From Blautia massiliensis (ex Durand et al. 2017) (GTDB lineage: Bacteria > Bacillota > Clostridia > Lachnospirales > Lachnospiraceae): DNA of 64,000 nt. Location of the stretch: assembly GCF_001487165.1 (NCBI RefSeq), contig NZ_LN913006.1:530545-594544 (forward strand), written 5' to 3'. The notes beneath the pieces were generated by a model. It was given only the letters and a program-made list of their open reading frames with translations. It did no database searches and had not been told where the DNA came from. Below, in pieces: positions 55,728 to 61,526 of the stretch. The translations under genes were made by a program, and so were the position numbers. The number at the start of each line of letters is the position of its first letter. Positions within the stretch are counted from its first letter, which is position 1.

Positions 55728-57194
55728 ATGGCAGAAAAAGTAAGAGATCTGAGAAGTGCTCTGGCACTTCTGGAGCAGATGCCAGATCAGCTGATCGAAA
55801 CAGAGGTGGAAGTTGATCCGATGGCAGAGCTTGCAGGGGTATATCGTTATGTAGGAGCCGGTGGAACGGTGAAGCGTCCCACAAAGGAAGGACCTGCCAT
55901 GATCTTTAATCGTATAAAAGGACACCCGGATGCAAAGGTAGCTATCGGTCTTCTGGCAAGCAGAAAAAGAGTTGCTGCTTTACTTGACACTCAGCCGGAA
56001 AATCTTGGAAAGATGCTCTGCAAAAGCGTGGAGAATCCAATTCCACCAGTCGATCTTGAAGGCGATGCACCGTGTCAGCAGGTGGTGCATAAGGCAGCAG
56101 ATCCAGATTTTGACCTCTATAAGCTGGTTCCTGCGCCAACGAACACACCGGATGATGCGGGCCCGTATATCACACTTGGCATGTGCTACGCCACACACCC
56201 GGATACTGGAGTTCACGATGTGACCATTCATCGTCTTTGCATTCAGGGAAAAGATGAGCTTTCCATTTTCTTTACACCTGGTGCCAGACATATCGGAGCA
56301 ATGGCAGAGCGTGCTGAGGAGCTGGGACAAAGGCTGCCTATTTCTATCAGTATCGGAGTTGATCCTGCTATTGAGATCGGTTCCTGTTTTGAGCCACCTA
56401 CAACACCACTGGGGTATGATGAGCTGTCTGTAGCCGGTGCACTGCGCAAAGAGCCGGTGAAACTCTGTAAATGTTTAACCGTTAACGAGCGTGCCATCGC
56501 CAATGCGGAATACGTGATCGAGGGAGAAGTGATCCCGGGTGTGCGTGTAAAGGAAGATCAGAACAGCAATACCGGATACGCCATGCCGGAGTTTCCGGGA
56601 TATACAGGGCCTGCAAGTGATCAGTGCTGGCTGATCAAGGTTACAGCAGTGACACATCGTGAAAATCCGATCATGCAGACCTGTATCGGGCCAAGTGAGG
56701 AGCACGTATCCATGGCGGGAATCCCTACAGAGGCCAGCATCTATGGCATGGTGGAAAAAGCAATGCCTGGAAGACTTCAGAACGTATACTGCAGCAGTGC
56801 CGGAGGTGGAAAGTATATGGCTGTCCTTCAGTTTAAAAAGCTTTCTCAAAGTGATGAGGGAAGACAGCGTCAGGCTGCACTTCTTGCATTTTCCGCCTTC
56901 AGTGAGCTGAAAAATGTATTTCTGGTAGATGAAGATGTGGACTGCTTTGATATGAATGACGTACTTTGGGCGATGAATACGAGATTCCAGGGGGATGTGG
57001 ATGTGATCACCATTCCGGGTGTCCGTTGTCATCCTCTTGATCCGTCCAATGATCCTGCATTTTCTCCAAGTATTCGTGATCATGGAATTGCATGCAAGAC
57101 TATTTTTGACTGTACGGTGCCTTATGATCTGAAGGAAGATTTTCACAGAGCCCGTTTTATGGAACTGGATCCGGAGAAATGGCTGAAAAAATGA
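55728..57194 (+). CDS. UbiD-family decarboxylase (gallate/hydroxyarylate, LpdC-like)
   Basis: A 488-residue UbiD-superfamily enzyme using prenylated FMN. N-terminal part VYRYVGAGGTVKRPTKEGPAMIFN is typical of non-oxidative hydroxyarylate decarboxylases. Later segments such as GIPTEASIYG and RCHPLDPSNDPAF carry conserved acid and prFMN contacts. It would decarboxylate a phenolic acid; gallate, protocatechuate and vanillate enzymes belong to this group. ATG 55728 after AGGAGG. It is the first gene of a ubiD-ubiX-lpdD operon. Confidence 0.88.
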   Translation: MAEKVRDLRSALALLEQMPDQLIETEVEVDPMAELAGVYRYVGAGGTVKRPTKEGPAMIFNRIKGHPDAKVAIGLLASRKRVAALLDTQPENLGKMLCKSVENPIPPVDLEGDAPCQQVVHKAADPDFDLYKLVPAPTNTPDDAGPYITLGMCYATHPDTGVHDVTIHRLCIQGKDELSIFFTPGARHIGAMAERAEELGQRLPISISIGVDPAIEIGSCFEPPTTPLGYDELSVAGALRKEPVKLCKCLTVNERAIANAEYVIEGEVIPGVRVKEDQNSNTGYAMPEFPGYTGPASDQCWLIKVTAVTHRENPIMQTCIGPSEEHVSMAGIPTEASIYGMVEKAMPGRLQNVYCSSAGGGKYMAVLQFKKLSQSDEGRQRQAALLAFSAFSELKNVFLVDEDVDCFDMNDVLWAMNTRFQGDVDVITIPGVRCHPLDPSNDPAFSPSIRDHGIACKTIFDCTVPYDLKEDFHRARFMELDPEKWLKK

Positions 57195-57760
57195 AAAAGA
57201 GAATTATAGTTGGTGCGACAGGTGCAAGCGGCCTGCCGCTCCTTGTAAAATGTCTGGAGATCATCCGGGAGAATCCGGATTTTGAGTCTTATCTGATCAT
57301 GAGTTCCAGTGCAGAGCTGACTCTTCGCCAGGAGACGGAGCTGGAACCGGAGGATGTGAAACGATTGGCAGATCATGTATGTGCACCGGGAGAAATTGGG
57401 GCAAAACCGGCCAGTGGTTCTTTCAAAACAGAGGGGATGCTGATCGTGCCCTGCAGCATGAAGACGATCGCGGGGATCCACAGTGGCTATGCAGATAATC
57501 TTATTCTGCGTGCGGCAGATGTGACGGTCAAGGAACAGAGAATACTGGTGCTGGCAGCCAGAGAAACACCGTTAAGCGGGATTCATCTCCGAAATCTTTA
57601 TGAGCTTTCCATGCTTCCGGGAGTGCGGATCATTCCGCCGATGCTGACGTTTTATCATAAACCGGAGAGCATTGATGATATGGTGTATCATATTGCAGCA
57701 AAGCTTTTGGAACCGTTTGGGATCGAAGCAAAGGAGTATCGCAGATGGAATGGATTATAA
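57191..57760 (+). CDS. UbiX-family flavin prenyltransferase (LpdB-like)
   Basis: A 189-residue flavoprotein with IIVGATGASG at the N-terminus and MLIVPCSMKTIAGIHSGYADNLILRAADV, then LVLAARETPLSGIHLRN. UbiX makes the prenyl-FMN cofactor for UbiD. ATG 57191 overlaps the ubiD stop (ATGA); an in-frame ATG at 57179 is also possible. It overlaps the next gene by 16 bases. Confidence 0.88.
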   Translation: MKKRIIVGATGASGLPLLVKCLEIIRENPDFESYLIMSSSAELTLRQETELEPEDVKRLADHVCAPGEIGAKPASGSFKTEGMLIVPCSMKTIAGIHSGYADNLILRAADVTVKEQRILVLAARETPLSGIHLRNLYELSMLPGVRIIPPMLTFYHKPESIDDMVYHIAAKLLEPFGIEAKEYRRWNGL

Positions 57761-58125
57761 AAGAGTGTGTGGAGACTGCAGGCTGTGAGCTGGAGGTCAG
57801 TGCTGCATTTATCGGAGAGGATGTGCTTATCTGTCTGAAAGGCGGAGAGAGACCTCATCTGGGATGTGTGGTGCAGACGGAACCGAGAGTGTCTCTGACA
57901 GGGGATGGTTCTGTGAGTGCGACTTCTTCAGTTTTGAATTTTCCGGGACATAAGGACGAGGTGATCTGCCGGTGGATGGCGGAGAAGGTTTCGAAAGAGC
58001 TGGGAAAGAGAGTGGTTTGCACCGGGGGATTTCATAAGGATGGTATTTCGGAGAAAGAGATCCGGGAGGTGCAGGGAAGTGTTGTGCGTCTGACAGAGAT
58101 GGTGATAGAAGGACTGCAGCGGTAG
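57745..58125 (+). CDS. LpdD-like small subunit / prFMN chaperone
   Basis: A 126-residue protein with no membrane segment and a conserved look: LKGGERPHLGCVVQTEPR, TSSVLNFPGHKDEVICRWMAEKVS. It matches the LpdD/VdcD group encoded with LpdB/LpdC in lactic and other bacteria and thought to deliver or maintain the cofactor of the decarboxylase. The triad order UbiD-UbiX-LpdD supports this. Confidence 0.8.
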   Translation: MEWIIKECVETAGCELEVSAAFIGEDVLICLKGGERPHLGCVVQTEPRVSLTGDGSVSATSSVLNFPGHKDEVICRWMAEKVSKELGKRVVCTGGFHKDGISEKEIREVQGSVVRLTEMVIEGLQR

Positions 58126-58247: not shown

Positions 58248-59621
58248 CTATTTATTTTCAAATATATTCTCGCGGGTAATATTCTTAGCCCACTTCCCAC
58301 TGAGATACCTTTTGATCACCCATGGCCACTTCACAAATTCATCCGTACAGAGCAGAAAATACACCCACATAACCGGCAGCTTCAGTACAAAAGCAGTGAA
58401 GAATCCAAGGGGTACTGCATATACCCACATATCAATGGTATCACAGATCAGACCAAACTTTGTATCACCACCTGCCCGGAACACACCAGCGATCAGGGTT
58501 GTATTTACGGCAGACCCCATAATATAGTAGCTGTTGATCAGAAGCATATATTTCAGATAATGCATGGCAGTGGGTGTCAGGGACGCAAATCTCATTACGA
58601 ACGGTGTGATGGCAAGAACGATAAGTCCGCCCAAAAAACCTGCAATAACAGTAAGCTTCAGTGTTTTGGAAGCATAACGCCTGGAACGTTCCAGATCGCC
58701 CTGCCCCATAACATTGCCTAGAAGGATACCTCCTGCACTGGCAATACCAAAACAGAAAACAGAGCCGATATTACGGACTACTACAACCAGAGAATTGGCA
58801 GCAACCGCATCCGTACCAAGATGCCCCAGGATCACAGAGTACATGGAAAAACCAATACTCCAGGAAATATCATTGCCAAGAGCCGGCAGGGAAAGCCGCA
58901 CGAAATCACTGAACAGCAGTTTGTTTTTTGTGAACATACATCGGAGATCCAGTCGGACATTTTTGCTGAAAGCAGAAACAATAAAACAGGCGATCAGCTC
59001 GATCATTCTGGAAAGTGCAGTAGCAATAGCTACACCGGTAGCACCAAGCTTGGGTGCTCCGAACAATCCGAAGATAAAAGTCGCATTCAAAAGGATATTC
59101 AGTCCAAAGGCCAGCATATTCATCGCCATGCTGGTAGTCACCCGTCCAATGCTTCGAAGAACAGCCAGATAAACCTCCGTCATACCCCAGCAGATATAGG
59201 TGATACCCATAATGCGGATATAGGAAGAACCAATGGCCAGAAGCTTCGGATCATTGGTGAACAGTTTCATCATCATCTGCGGCATGGTAAATGCAACGAG
59301 CGCCACGAGAACAGAGATGATCATGGAAAAACGAAGAGCGATTCCCTCGATGATCTGAATGGCTTTGTAATCTCCCTTTCCATAATACTGGGCACAAAGC
59401 AGGGTGGCTCCCGTACCAAGACCGTAATATACCATAAACAGGACATTGGAATAATTCGCTGCTAGAGATACTGCGGAGATGGATGACTGACCTACAAAGT
59501 TCAGCATGATAACATCGGCAGAATTTACTGCTGCACTTAGCAGGTTCTGAATGATGATGGGGATGACAAGCTTAACGATCTGTGGATAAAAATCATCCCG
59601 CTGTGAAAGTTGATTTCTCAT
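58248..59621 (-). CDS. MATE-family efflux transporter
   Basis: A 457-residue protein with about 12 membrane helices. The opening IVKLVIPIIIQNLLSAAVNSADVIMLNFVG is typical MATE. It exchanges drugs or metabolites for Na+ or H+. ATG 59621 is chosen because GGGAGGAGGAA precedes it, and the 44-residue upstream extension lacks homology. Its substrate is unknown; the neighbouring phenolic decarboxylase operon is convergent, so a link is only contextual. Confidence 0.9.
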   Translation of the reverse strand: MRNQLSQRDDFYPQIVKLVIPIIIQNLLSAAVNSADVIMLNFVGQSSISAVSLAANYSNVLFMVYYGLGTGATLLCAQYYGKGDYKAIQIIEGIALRFSMIISVLVALVAFTMPQMMMKLFTNDPKLLAIGSSYIRIMGITYICWGMTEVYLAVLRSIGRVTTSMAMNMLAFGLNILLNATFIFGLFGAPKLGATGVAIATALSRMIELIACFIVSAFSKNVRLDLRCMFTKNKLLFSDFVRLSLPALGNDISWSIGFSMYSVILGHLGTDAVAANSLVVVVRNIGSVFCFGIASAGGILLGNVMGQGDLERSRRYASKTLKLTVIAGFLGGLIVLAITPFVMRFASLTPTAMHYLKYMLLINSYYIMGSAVNTTLIAGVFRAGGDTKFGLICDTIDMWVYAVPLGFFTAFVLKLPVMWVYFLLCTDEFVKWPWVIKRYLSGKWAKNITRENIFENK

Positions 59622-59899
59622 TTCCTCCTCCCAAAAAATACAATTACAATGACGTGAAAAACAGTAGATCACATACATGGTAACTGTGTCAGCTTTTGTA
59701 AAAAATGAAAGCAGACATGATTGCACGATAACATAGTTTACAGGCAGTGTCAATCGGCAAACTGTGGAACTGTTTAAACAACTTACGGGAAAATGACGAA
59801 TATAAAAAATGCATAAAAAACCATATCAGCAGTTGTTGAGATTTCCAATCCATGATAAACTGAATGAAGATATTTTTCAGAGAAAGAGGAGTAAAAAAT

Positions 59900-61390
59900 A
59901 TGCCAGTTTTTGATTTCAGCGCAGCGCCGGCAGATAAAAAAGAGACAAAAAGCCAGTGCACATATACAACATTTCGTTCTAATGAAACAAAAGCCACACC
60001 GGAGAAACCGGTGCTGATCCTGGATAACAGCAAAAGAGAGTGGAAACATCATTCCTGCGGATATTTTTCCAATCCTGCGAAGCAGACTGCATTTGAGTTT
60101 AAGGAAGAGGACGGTGTTTTTCCGGCAGACATCCTGAAGATCGATTCCCGTTTTACAAGCCTGATCAAATGGCTCGGAGAAAATCATATCAACATCCGTC
60201 TTTCAGGACAGAATACAGAAGAAGGATATGCCGTTTACAAAATCCGCGAGATCGCTTTTGGCGGAGGCACCAAGCTTTCTGCTGAGGACGGATTTCTTCA
60301 GTTTATGATCGAGCGTCTGTTTGCAAGCAGTGCGCCGGCAGAAGAAAATGAGAACGATGAGGAGGAAGAAGACGGTGACGATATGAAGCTTACCAGTATT
60401 CAGAGTATCACCGACTTTATGAACTGTGCCGGAAAGACTATGCCGGATAATATCCGTCTCTGGGCAAGAAGAAATCTGGCAGTTGCCCGTTCTCATGAGG
60501 TTTCTCAGGAGGAAAGACGCCATGCCCAGAGAGCACTTTCCATCATGATGAATATTCAGTGGAAGCATAATTATTTTGAGTCTATTGATCCGAAGGAAGC
60601 ACGCCGTATCCTGGATGAGGAGCTTTATGGAATGGAGCGTGTAAAACAGAGGATCATTGAGACGATCATTCAGATTAATCGTACTCATACACTTCCTGCC
60701 TACGGACTGCTTCTTGTAGGACCTGCAGGTACCGGTAAATCTCAGATCGCTTATGCAGTTGCAAGAATCCTGAAAATGCCGTGGACAACCCTGGATATGA
60801 GTTCGATCAATGATCCGGAACAGCTTACAGGAAGCTCTCGTGTTTATGCAAATGCCAAGCCTGGAATCATCATGGAGGCTTTTTCCATGGCAGGAGAATC
60901 CAATCTGGTATTTATCATCAATGAGCTTGACAAGGCTGCATCAGGTAAAGGAAACGGAAATCCGGCAGACGTGCTTCTGACACTGCTGGATAATCTTGGT
61001 TTTACAGATAACTATATGGAATGTATGGTTCCGACAGTTGGTGTCTATCCTATTGCCACAGCCAATGATAAGGCACAGATCAGCGCACCTCTGATGTCAC
61101 GTTTTGCAGTGATCGATATTCCTGATTACACACCGGAGGAAAAGAAGATCATCTTTTCCAGATTTGCGCTTCCCAAGGTTCTGAAACGTATGAGCCTGAA
61201 ACAGGAAGAATGTATCGTAACAGATGAGGCGCTGGACGCAGTAATTAAGAAATTTGAAGATACCACAGGAATCCGTGATCTGGAGCAGGCTGCGGAGCAT
61301 ATTGCGGCCAATGCCCTGTATCAGATCGAGGTGGATCATGTGAAGGCTGTAACCTTTACTCCCGAGATGGTACAGGAGCTTTTGGACTGA
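59900..61390 (+). CDS. Lon-like AAA+ ATPase without protease domain
   Basis: A 496-residue protein. Residues 1-155 are a novel N-terminal region, followed by an acidic stretch (EENENDEEEEDGDD), a helical segment (about 165-230) and a Lon-type AAA+ module with LDEELYGMERVKQRIIE, Walker A GPAGTGKS (274-281), sensor 1 PIATAND, the arginine-finger segment LMSRFAVIDIPDYT and sensor 2 GIRDLEQ. The Walker B reads FIINELDK, with Asn341 where Lon has Asp and Glu342 retained. The Lon Ser-Lys protease domain is absent. It may be a remodelling ATPase; its partner is unknown. ATG 59900 after AGAGGAG. Confidence 0.85.
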   Translation: MPVFDFSAAPADKKETKSQCTYTTFRSNETKATPEKPVLILDNSKREWKHHSCGYFSNPAKQTAFEFKEEDGVFPADILKIDSRFTSLIKWLGENHINIRLSGQNTEEGYAVYKIREIAFGGGTKLSAEDGFLQFMIERLFASSAPAEENENDEEEEDGDDMKLTSIQSITDFMNCAGKTMPDNIRLWARRNLAVARSHEVSQEERRHAQRALSIMMNIQWKHNYFESIDPKEARRILDEELYGMERVKQRIIETIIQINRTHTLPAYGLLLVGPAGTGKSQIAYAVARILKMPWTTLDMSSINDPEQLTGSSRVYANAKPGIIMEAFSMAGESNLVFIINELDKAASGKGNGNPADVLLTLLDNLGFTDNYMECMVPTVGVYPIATANDKAQISAPLMSRFAVIDIPDYTPEEKKIIFSRFALPKVLKRMSLKQEECIVTDEALDAVIKKFEDTTGIRDLEQAAEHIAANALYQIEVDHVKAVTFTPEMVQELLD

Positions 61391-61414
61391 CAAAGGGATC
61401 TGTTTTGCAATGAT

Positions 61415-61450
61415 AAAAATGCTTCCGGAGATTTTTTCGGAAGCATTTTT
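61415..61450 (+). terminator. Terminator of the AAA+ gene
   Basis: AAAAATGCTTCCG and CGGAAGCATTTTT pair perfectly; the second arm ends in a T run. Confidence 0.85.
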
Positions 61451-61526
61451 GGCTGAGGGAATGCACCTGTTTATGCCGGGCCTGTCTGATCGTAAAGGAA
61501 AATTATAAAAATAATGAAATCAGGGA

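Follow-up and report, generated by a model that had tools for sequence, protein, structure and literature searches.

The gene at positions 59900 to 61390 of the window (by which is meant the whole 64,000-nucleotide stretch of DNA analysed) encodes a Lon-clade AAA+ protein that ends at the helical lid of its ATPase module, and yet it is no Lon protease as defined, because the protease domain was tested for and is absent. Its Walker B motif has Asn341 in place of the Asp, and this exchange is the rule of its family. Whether it acts as a stand-alone, probably hexameric, ATP-driven protein-remodelling AAA+ ATPase from a Lon ancestor seems an evenly balanced question, and of the explanations weighed below this is the one preferred. 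The features are these:

59900..61390, plus strand: coding sequence of the Lon-derived AAA+ ATPase without protease, 496 aa (stop codon 61388-61390)
59900..59956, plus strand: N-terminal tail, residues 1-19, MPVFDF then low-confidence residues (pLDDT ~40)
59954..60334, plus strand: N-terminal domain, residues 19-145, compact in the model
60335..60382, plus strand: acidic linker, residues 146-161, from composition and alignment
60386..60574, plus strand: three-helix bundle as in LonA, residues 163-225 (3m6a match from residue 163)
60575..61129, plus strand: AAA+ alpha/beta domain, residues 226-410, from the Lon-type match and structure comparison
60719..60742, plus strand: Walker A GPAGTGKS, residues 274-281, with Ser281 where Lon has Thr
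60845..60847, plus strand: pore-loop-1 tyrosine Y316, 26 residues before the Walker B Glu
60911..60934, plus strand: Walker B FIINELDK, residues 338-345, with the Asn341 codon at 60920-60922
61130..61387, plus strand: Lon-type helical lid, residues 411-496, from structure and a Lon_lid match at E 0.004, below cut-off
61414-61451, plus strand: intrinsic terminator hairpin with T run (-20.7 kcal/mol, z -4.7)

The gene, its Lon-type core and its N-terminal domain

A Shine-Dalgarno sequence of good quality precedes the start at 59900, which is preferred over a worse candidate, the in-frame ATG at 59864, because the MPVFDF start peptide is common to 77 of 78 aligned rows. These are the window protein and 77 of 80 named relatives (three were left out), the 80 being the best of at least 562 confirmed matches; the pattern ATG-x-V-F-D-F occurs once genome-wide. 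Only 1 of 200 shuffles gave a hairpin as good as the terminator, which is absent from the output of a pattern scan for terminators. With a divergent frame upstream (58248-59753, MATE-transporter-like by eye) and a LacI-type regulator downstream (start 61615), the gene is a single-gene unit, and the strong terminator bears out the sequence-only reading, made before any database search, on this point. A motif search of 76 upstream regions (the window and 75 of the best 80 of at least 562 relatives) returned merely A/T-rich words and a -10-like TATAAT.

Lon is recognisable throughout the core, which is ~30% identical to it. A PDB search gave B. subtilis Lon at E 5.1e-45 over residues 163-494, and structure comparison a best Z of 21.9 to LonA chain 4ypl (265 residues, rmsd 3.3). 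The same reading had seen a Lon-type AAA+ core without the Ser-Lys protease, and so it is; what needed revision was its extent, for the likeness begins near residue 163 and takes in the three-helix bundle, the helices of which are predicted at 167-180, 183-197 and 203-217 in a full-length model of moderate quality (pLDDT 69, five models ranging from 69.0 to 54.6, pore loops <50). The Lon_lid match exceeds its cut-off in one relative, L072. The NCBIfam lon model scores 188 bits over residues 178-479 against a cut-off of 608 bits, and so falls short. The GPSAG motif is present in 22 of 22 Lon loci detected by the motif test (24 Lon loci were examined), and the window's genome also encodes a full-length Lon (770 aa) in a gene of its own.

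Ahead of the core, a Pfam scan of residues 1-167 found no Lon N-terminal domain, its one match being a chance model at E 0.3. The claim that the N-terminal domain is novel stands: residues 1-167 have no match at E <= 1 in PHROGs and PADLOC, and a profile of the domain has none at E <= 10 among PDB sequences. Structure prediction and profile searching, which had been suggested for this part of the protein, place it in no family. A model of residues 18-149 (pLDDT 84.8, pTM 0.80) shows five main strands, the third and fourth connected through a helix, and a second helix after them, and the order strand-strand-strand-helix-strand-strand is that of the OB fold. No Foldseek match in PDB or BFVD fell below E 0.001 (the best was 0.026), and closer alignment of the candidates reached Z values up to 4.5, a figure lying below the tool's typical value for models without a clear match. 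They are mainly OB-fold proteins, and the weak matches include SSB, eIF5A and HIRAN chains; the modelled domain is thus possibly OB-like, its matches being weak throughout. Its residues G54, D82 and R84 are invariant in 20 diverse members, and a search with the domain in 14 carrier genomes gave 16 strong matches, all within the family, and two further marginal ones (E 0.017 and 0.12). The domain is near neutral (pI 6.35, net -1). The linker was rightly called acidic, its net charge running from -12 to -5 across the 78 aligned rows (relatives from the best 80 of at least 562), and the tail residues after MPVFDF are probably disordered, to judge from the model.

Long-type relatives with extra N-terminal sequence were seen at 13 loci (L072, L074, L077, L080, L085, L087, L089, L091, L092, L093, L095, L096 and L097). 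The extra part includes a ~60-aa piece, helical by eye, with the rough pattern 'ILRENxLRF..FW....SDAEIDxVL', and it has no match over cut-off in a Pfam scan of 5 of the 13.

Asn341 and the Mg2+ site

The Asn341 codon is confirmed, and a check across the family, which the sequence-only reading had proposed, makes Asn the rule. Distinct rows above 300 bits, window included, number 165, of which 164 cover the site and all 164 carry Asn; the remaining row comes from a gene that one assembly has broken in two, and the other piece bears the Asn. That other piece and 25 Lon-level rows make up the 26 rows below 300 bits, and each of those 25 has Asp at the site. Asp in all relatives had been named as the finding that would point to a sequencing error or a decayed gene, and it is not what the relatives have.

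The other catalytic residues that were checked are intact. The Lys of Walker A, the Glu of Walker B, the Asn of sensor 1, the Arg finger, the Arg of sensor 2 and the pore Tyr are kept, and each of E342, N389, R401 and R459 is found in all 164 family rows that cover its position. The pore Tyr also keeps its distance from the Walker B Glu, a spacing the same as that between Y565 and E591 of human LONP1 in the portion of the source available (PMC8163871). When 20 diverse members are compared with 24 Lons, 47 positions are common, including K280, Y316, E342, N389, R401 and R459, and 26 are fixed or nearly fixed differently (>=95% and 90% agreement inside the two groups). The latter include P276A and T281S in Walker A and D341N in Walker B, and Ser281 is, like Asn341, a rule of the family. 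The pattern suggests that the Mg2+ site was re-tuned in a concerted way while the rest of the ATPase stayed complete.

Precedent for what such a change does comes from engineered proteins. In PspF the D107A variant has a Vmax of 0.23 against 39.5 per min, in the section of the paper available (PMC3419264), and in McrB the change of the Walker B Asp to Ala or Asn hurts oligomer formation, the accessible text adding that in most AAA+ proteins mutation of this Asp is said to hit hydrolysis and not binding (PMC6344862). Since a Walker B Asp change usually cripples hydrolysis, as PspF and McrB illustrate, the protein may by analogy bind ATP and barely turn it over, which is the counterpoint to remodelling taken up below.

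Descent, distribution and genomic setting

A tree built from the 20 members and 24 Lons sets the family apart from the Lons by a long branch supported at 100/100, and the two stems that flank the midpoint root together amount to ~6.2 changes per column. Comparison of the window protein's gene with seven relatives gives dN/dS of 0.014-0.073, of which 0.014 and 0.031 are the firm values, dS exceeding 1.3 in five of the seven, and by these ratios the gene is under strong purifying selection. It also ranks above Lon in conservation: in 25 of 25 genomes its identity to the window copy is greater than that of Lon to the Lon of the window's genome (83% against 54% in G317, for example), a comparison to be read as a ranking and not a rate, the identities being local and some of the Lons maybe paralogs. 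The 25 are what is left of 40 carriers once 12 without a Lon match, the window genome itself and two lacking a family identity value are taken away.

Carriers make up 25 of 37 genomes in the genus sample and 103 of 347 in the sample of the taxonomic family (E <= 1e-60). The order sample has 33 in 294, all from the gene's own taxonomic family and with a score gap from 749.9 to 213.5 bits; the class sample has 8 in 392, and the phylum sample 2 in 299. Two of the carriers in the class sample belong to another taxonomic family, f177, with copies 66-67% identical, and so strict restriction to one family is refuted; the gene is rarely found outside its own. The f177 copies (L251 7140-8627 and L252 7824-9371) are each adjoined by an argG-like frame on the opposite strand. 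Horizontal transfer is a possible source of them.

Major commensals of the gut include Lachnospiraceae such as Blautia, Roseburia, Coprococcus and Anaerostipes. Among the matches listed, relatives come from Blautia, Coprococcus, Roseburia, Anaerostipes and Enterocloster, and the closest named one, from the best 80 of at least 562, is Blautia schinkii MSK.6.26 at 96%, which makes a Blautia the probable source of the window. A second copy is present in 8 of the 103 carriers (nine show two matches, one being the split gene). A phage search gave 9 records, none with 80% query coverage and all below 60% identity, an IMG/VR search one 6.4-kb contig, and a plasmid search 57 records, one of them with >=80% coverage. 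This is a 243-kb plasmid of Roseburia sp. 831b, on which a 77% identical copy lies at L245 8001-9485 (NZ_CP135163.1).

No conserved neighbour was found within six genes on each side at 116 of 121 loci, as counted with a crude longest-frame gene picker on a set that includes loci truncated at contig ends and genomes represented twice. The commonest neighbour cluster, ABC-transporter ATPases by eye, is at 19 of the 116 in scattered positions, and argG (by eye) is within two genes at 5 of 116. As general neighbours dnaK and dnaJ were considered and set aside: both are near the gene at one of the 116 loci and at one f177 locus, with a weaker DnaJ-like frame six genes off in another.

Co-occurrence was assessed in 40 carriers and 40 non-carriers, a non-random set picked for completeness from the taxonomic family and order samples. 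Of the 40 carriers, 28 have a Lon match at E <= 1e-100 and 21 have SpoIVA, and for the 40 non-carriers the counts are 30 and 26; HslV was found in 0 of the 80 genomes, where a control was found in 10 of 14. A second search, with the Lon protease model, went over the 12 carriers in which Lon had not matched. It brought up a lon gene in G115 that is spread over two overlapping frames of 557 and 226 aa (L240 3310-5597), through a genuine split or a fault of assembly, and in G618 the end of a lon gene where a contig stops. Of the 40 near-complete carriers this leaves 10 with no Lon detected by either search, from genera g165, g215, g199 and g254 of the own taxonomic family. Their remaining matches to the Lon model are below 47 bits, in frames of 455-553 aa that by size are presumably RadA or ComM. 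By these gene counts the ATPase depends on neither Lon nor HslV and does not track the sporulation gene.

A proposed remodeller and the competing explanations

Set beside LonA protease, the protein shares the three-helix bundle, the AAA+ alpha/beta domain and the lid, together with the Walker A Lys, Walker B Glu, sensors, Arg finger and pore Tyr. It differs in having a new N-terminal domain and no recognisable Lon N-domain or Ser-Lys protease, and in the Asp to Asn and Thr to Ser changes at the Mg2+ site among the 26 (nearly) fixed differences. The route proposed is that a Lon ancestor lost its protease domain and Lon N-domain, and that a new N-domain of ~125 residues, which might form an OB-like ring, came to be placed before the three-helix bundle. 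In the remodelling cycle the N-domain and MPVFDF tail would bind a substrate or adaptor, ATP would close the ring, and Tyr316 would pull on a disordered segment of the substrate. Hydrolysis would be slower or altered in its Mg2+ dependence, because both of the Mg2+-positioning side chains are changed, and the substrate would be released remodelled and not degraded, because no protease chamber follows. A dead enzyme is unlikely, because every other catalytic residue checked is kept. The unfoldase role once suggested from the sequence is plausible in so far as we infer it from the pore Tyr and the kept catalytic residues, and the companion suggestion of a regulatory ATPase for a partner finds no support, with no neighbour conserved in 116 loci and the gene kept in the 10 carriers in which no Lon was detected.

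The main rival is a slow or locked ATP clamp, which we think unlikely on the whole although it deserves serious weight. Here Asn341 would nearly abolish hydrolysis and the ring would serve as an ATP-bound scaffold, switch, clamp or holdase, as is consistent with Asn at every covered site, with the binding said to be spared in most AAA+ proteins and with the damage done to hydrolysis in PspF (change to Ala) and to assembly in McrB (to Ala or Asn). Against it stand the four residues E342, N389, R401 and R459, invariant in 164 rows, where drift in some would be expected without hydrolysis. Unfoldases serving a separate protease are common, and the kept pore Tyr would suit an unfolding subunit for ClpP, HslV, Lon or another peptidase, but such a role is improbable here. 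No proteasome-fold peptidase was found in the HslV search of 80 genomes, Lon goes undetected in a quarter of the 40 carriers, and no neighbour is conserved. In contrast to ClpX and HslU, the span between sensor 1 and the Arg finger is as long as in Lon, with no insert at what we take to be the site of the ClpP-docking loop of ClpX; LGF (366-368) was considered as such a loop and rejected, as it aligns with a pre-sensor-1 segment of Lon. In the proteasome-type ATPases PAN, Mpa and Rpt an OB ring comes before the AAA+ ring, and the possible OB-like domain ahead of the core resembles this (the weak matches include human 26S regulatory particle chain 8jti_C, Z 2.7), but the core is Lon-type and the C terminus has the HbYX ending, which we take to mark such ATPases, in 0 of 20 members.

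A DNA or RNA motor is also a poor prospect. It would draw on the OB-like strand order with its SSB, eIF5A and HIRAN matches, and on BrxL of BREX, a DNA-binding, MCM-like protein with a Lon-derived name, which in the accessible part of its description likewise pairs an AAA+ core with a ~146-residue N-domain of no known homology and has no conserved Lon protease site (PMC10164562). Yet the N-domain here is near neutral and the linker strongly acidic, the Lon pore Tyr is kept, and the core is closer to Lon, at ~30% identity against <20% given for BrxL in the same excerpt (PMC10164562). BrxL as described there also has a Lon/RadA-like C-terminal domain, DNA binding and a BREX operon, whereas this protein ends at the lid and has no BREX neighbour that was seen; the 10 PADLOC models with a match at E <= 1 do not include BrxL. 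That the protein regulates Lon or joins it in mixed rings would fit their common core fold, the interfaces of which could mix, and the Lon in the window's genome, but retention of the gene in carriers with no detected Lon and the near-equal Lon counts in carriers and non-carriers make it very improbable. A decayed Lon fragment or sequencing error, to which the missing protease and changed Asp might point, is refuted for practical purposes by the low dN/dS, the Asn in every covering row and the conserved N-domain.

Returning to the remodeller, its most specific form is that of a Lachnospiraceae-private, housekeeping-grade Lon-derived remodelling ring, with proteolysis given up, a new OB-like or hitherto unseen N-domain and an active Asn-Walker B/Ser-Walker A Mg2+ site. 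As a package this is tentative, and we would sooner doubt it than adopt it. If it is true, the Mg2+ site would be unusual and active, not dead. The family would then exemplify an AAA+ protease reduced to a remodeller and would offer a natural test of the requirement for the Walker B Asp. A close homologue with known function, which would have told against the first reading, was not found; the one annotated relative seen is named 'AAA family ATPase', and the papers listed by searches of open-licence literature include none on this family. A protein better conserved than Lon, and annotated merely in this way where annotation was seen, is a clear gap.

Elsewhere in the window, at 55728-58125, lies a three-gene run of a UbiD decarboxylase, a UbiX-like flavoprotein and a small protein that matches PAC_bac ('bacterial proteasome assembling chaperone-like') at E 2.8e-31, an odd companion for a decarboxylase.
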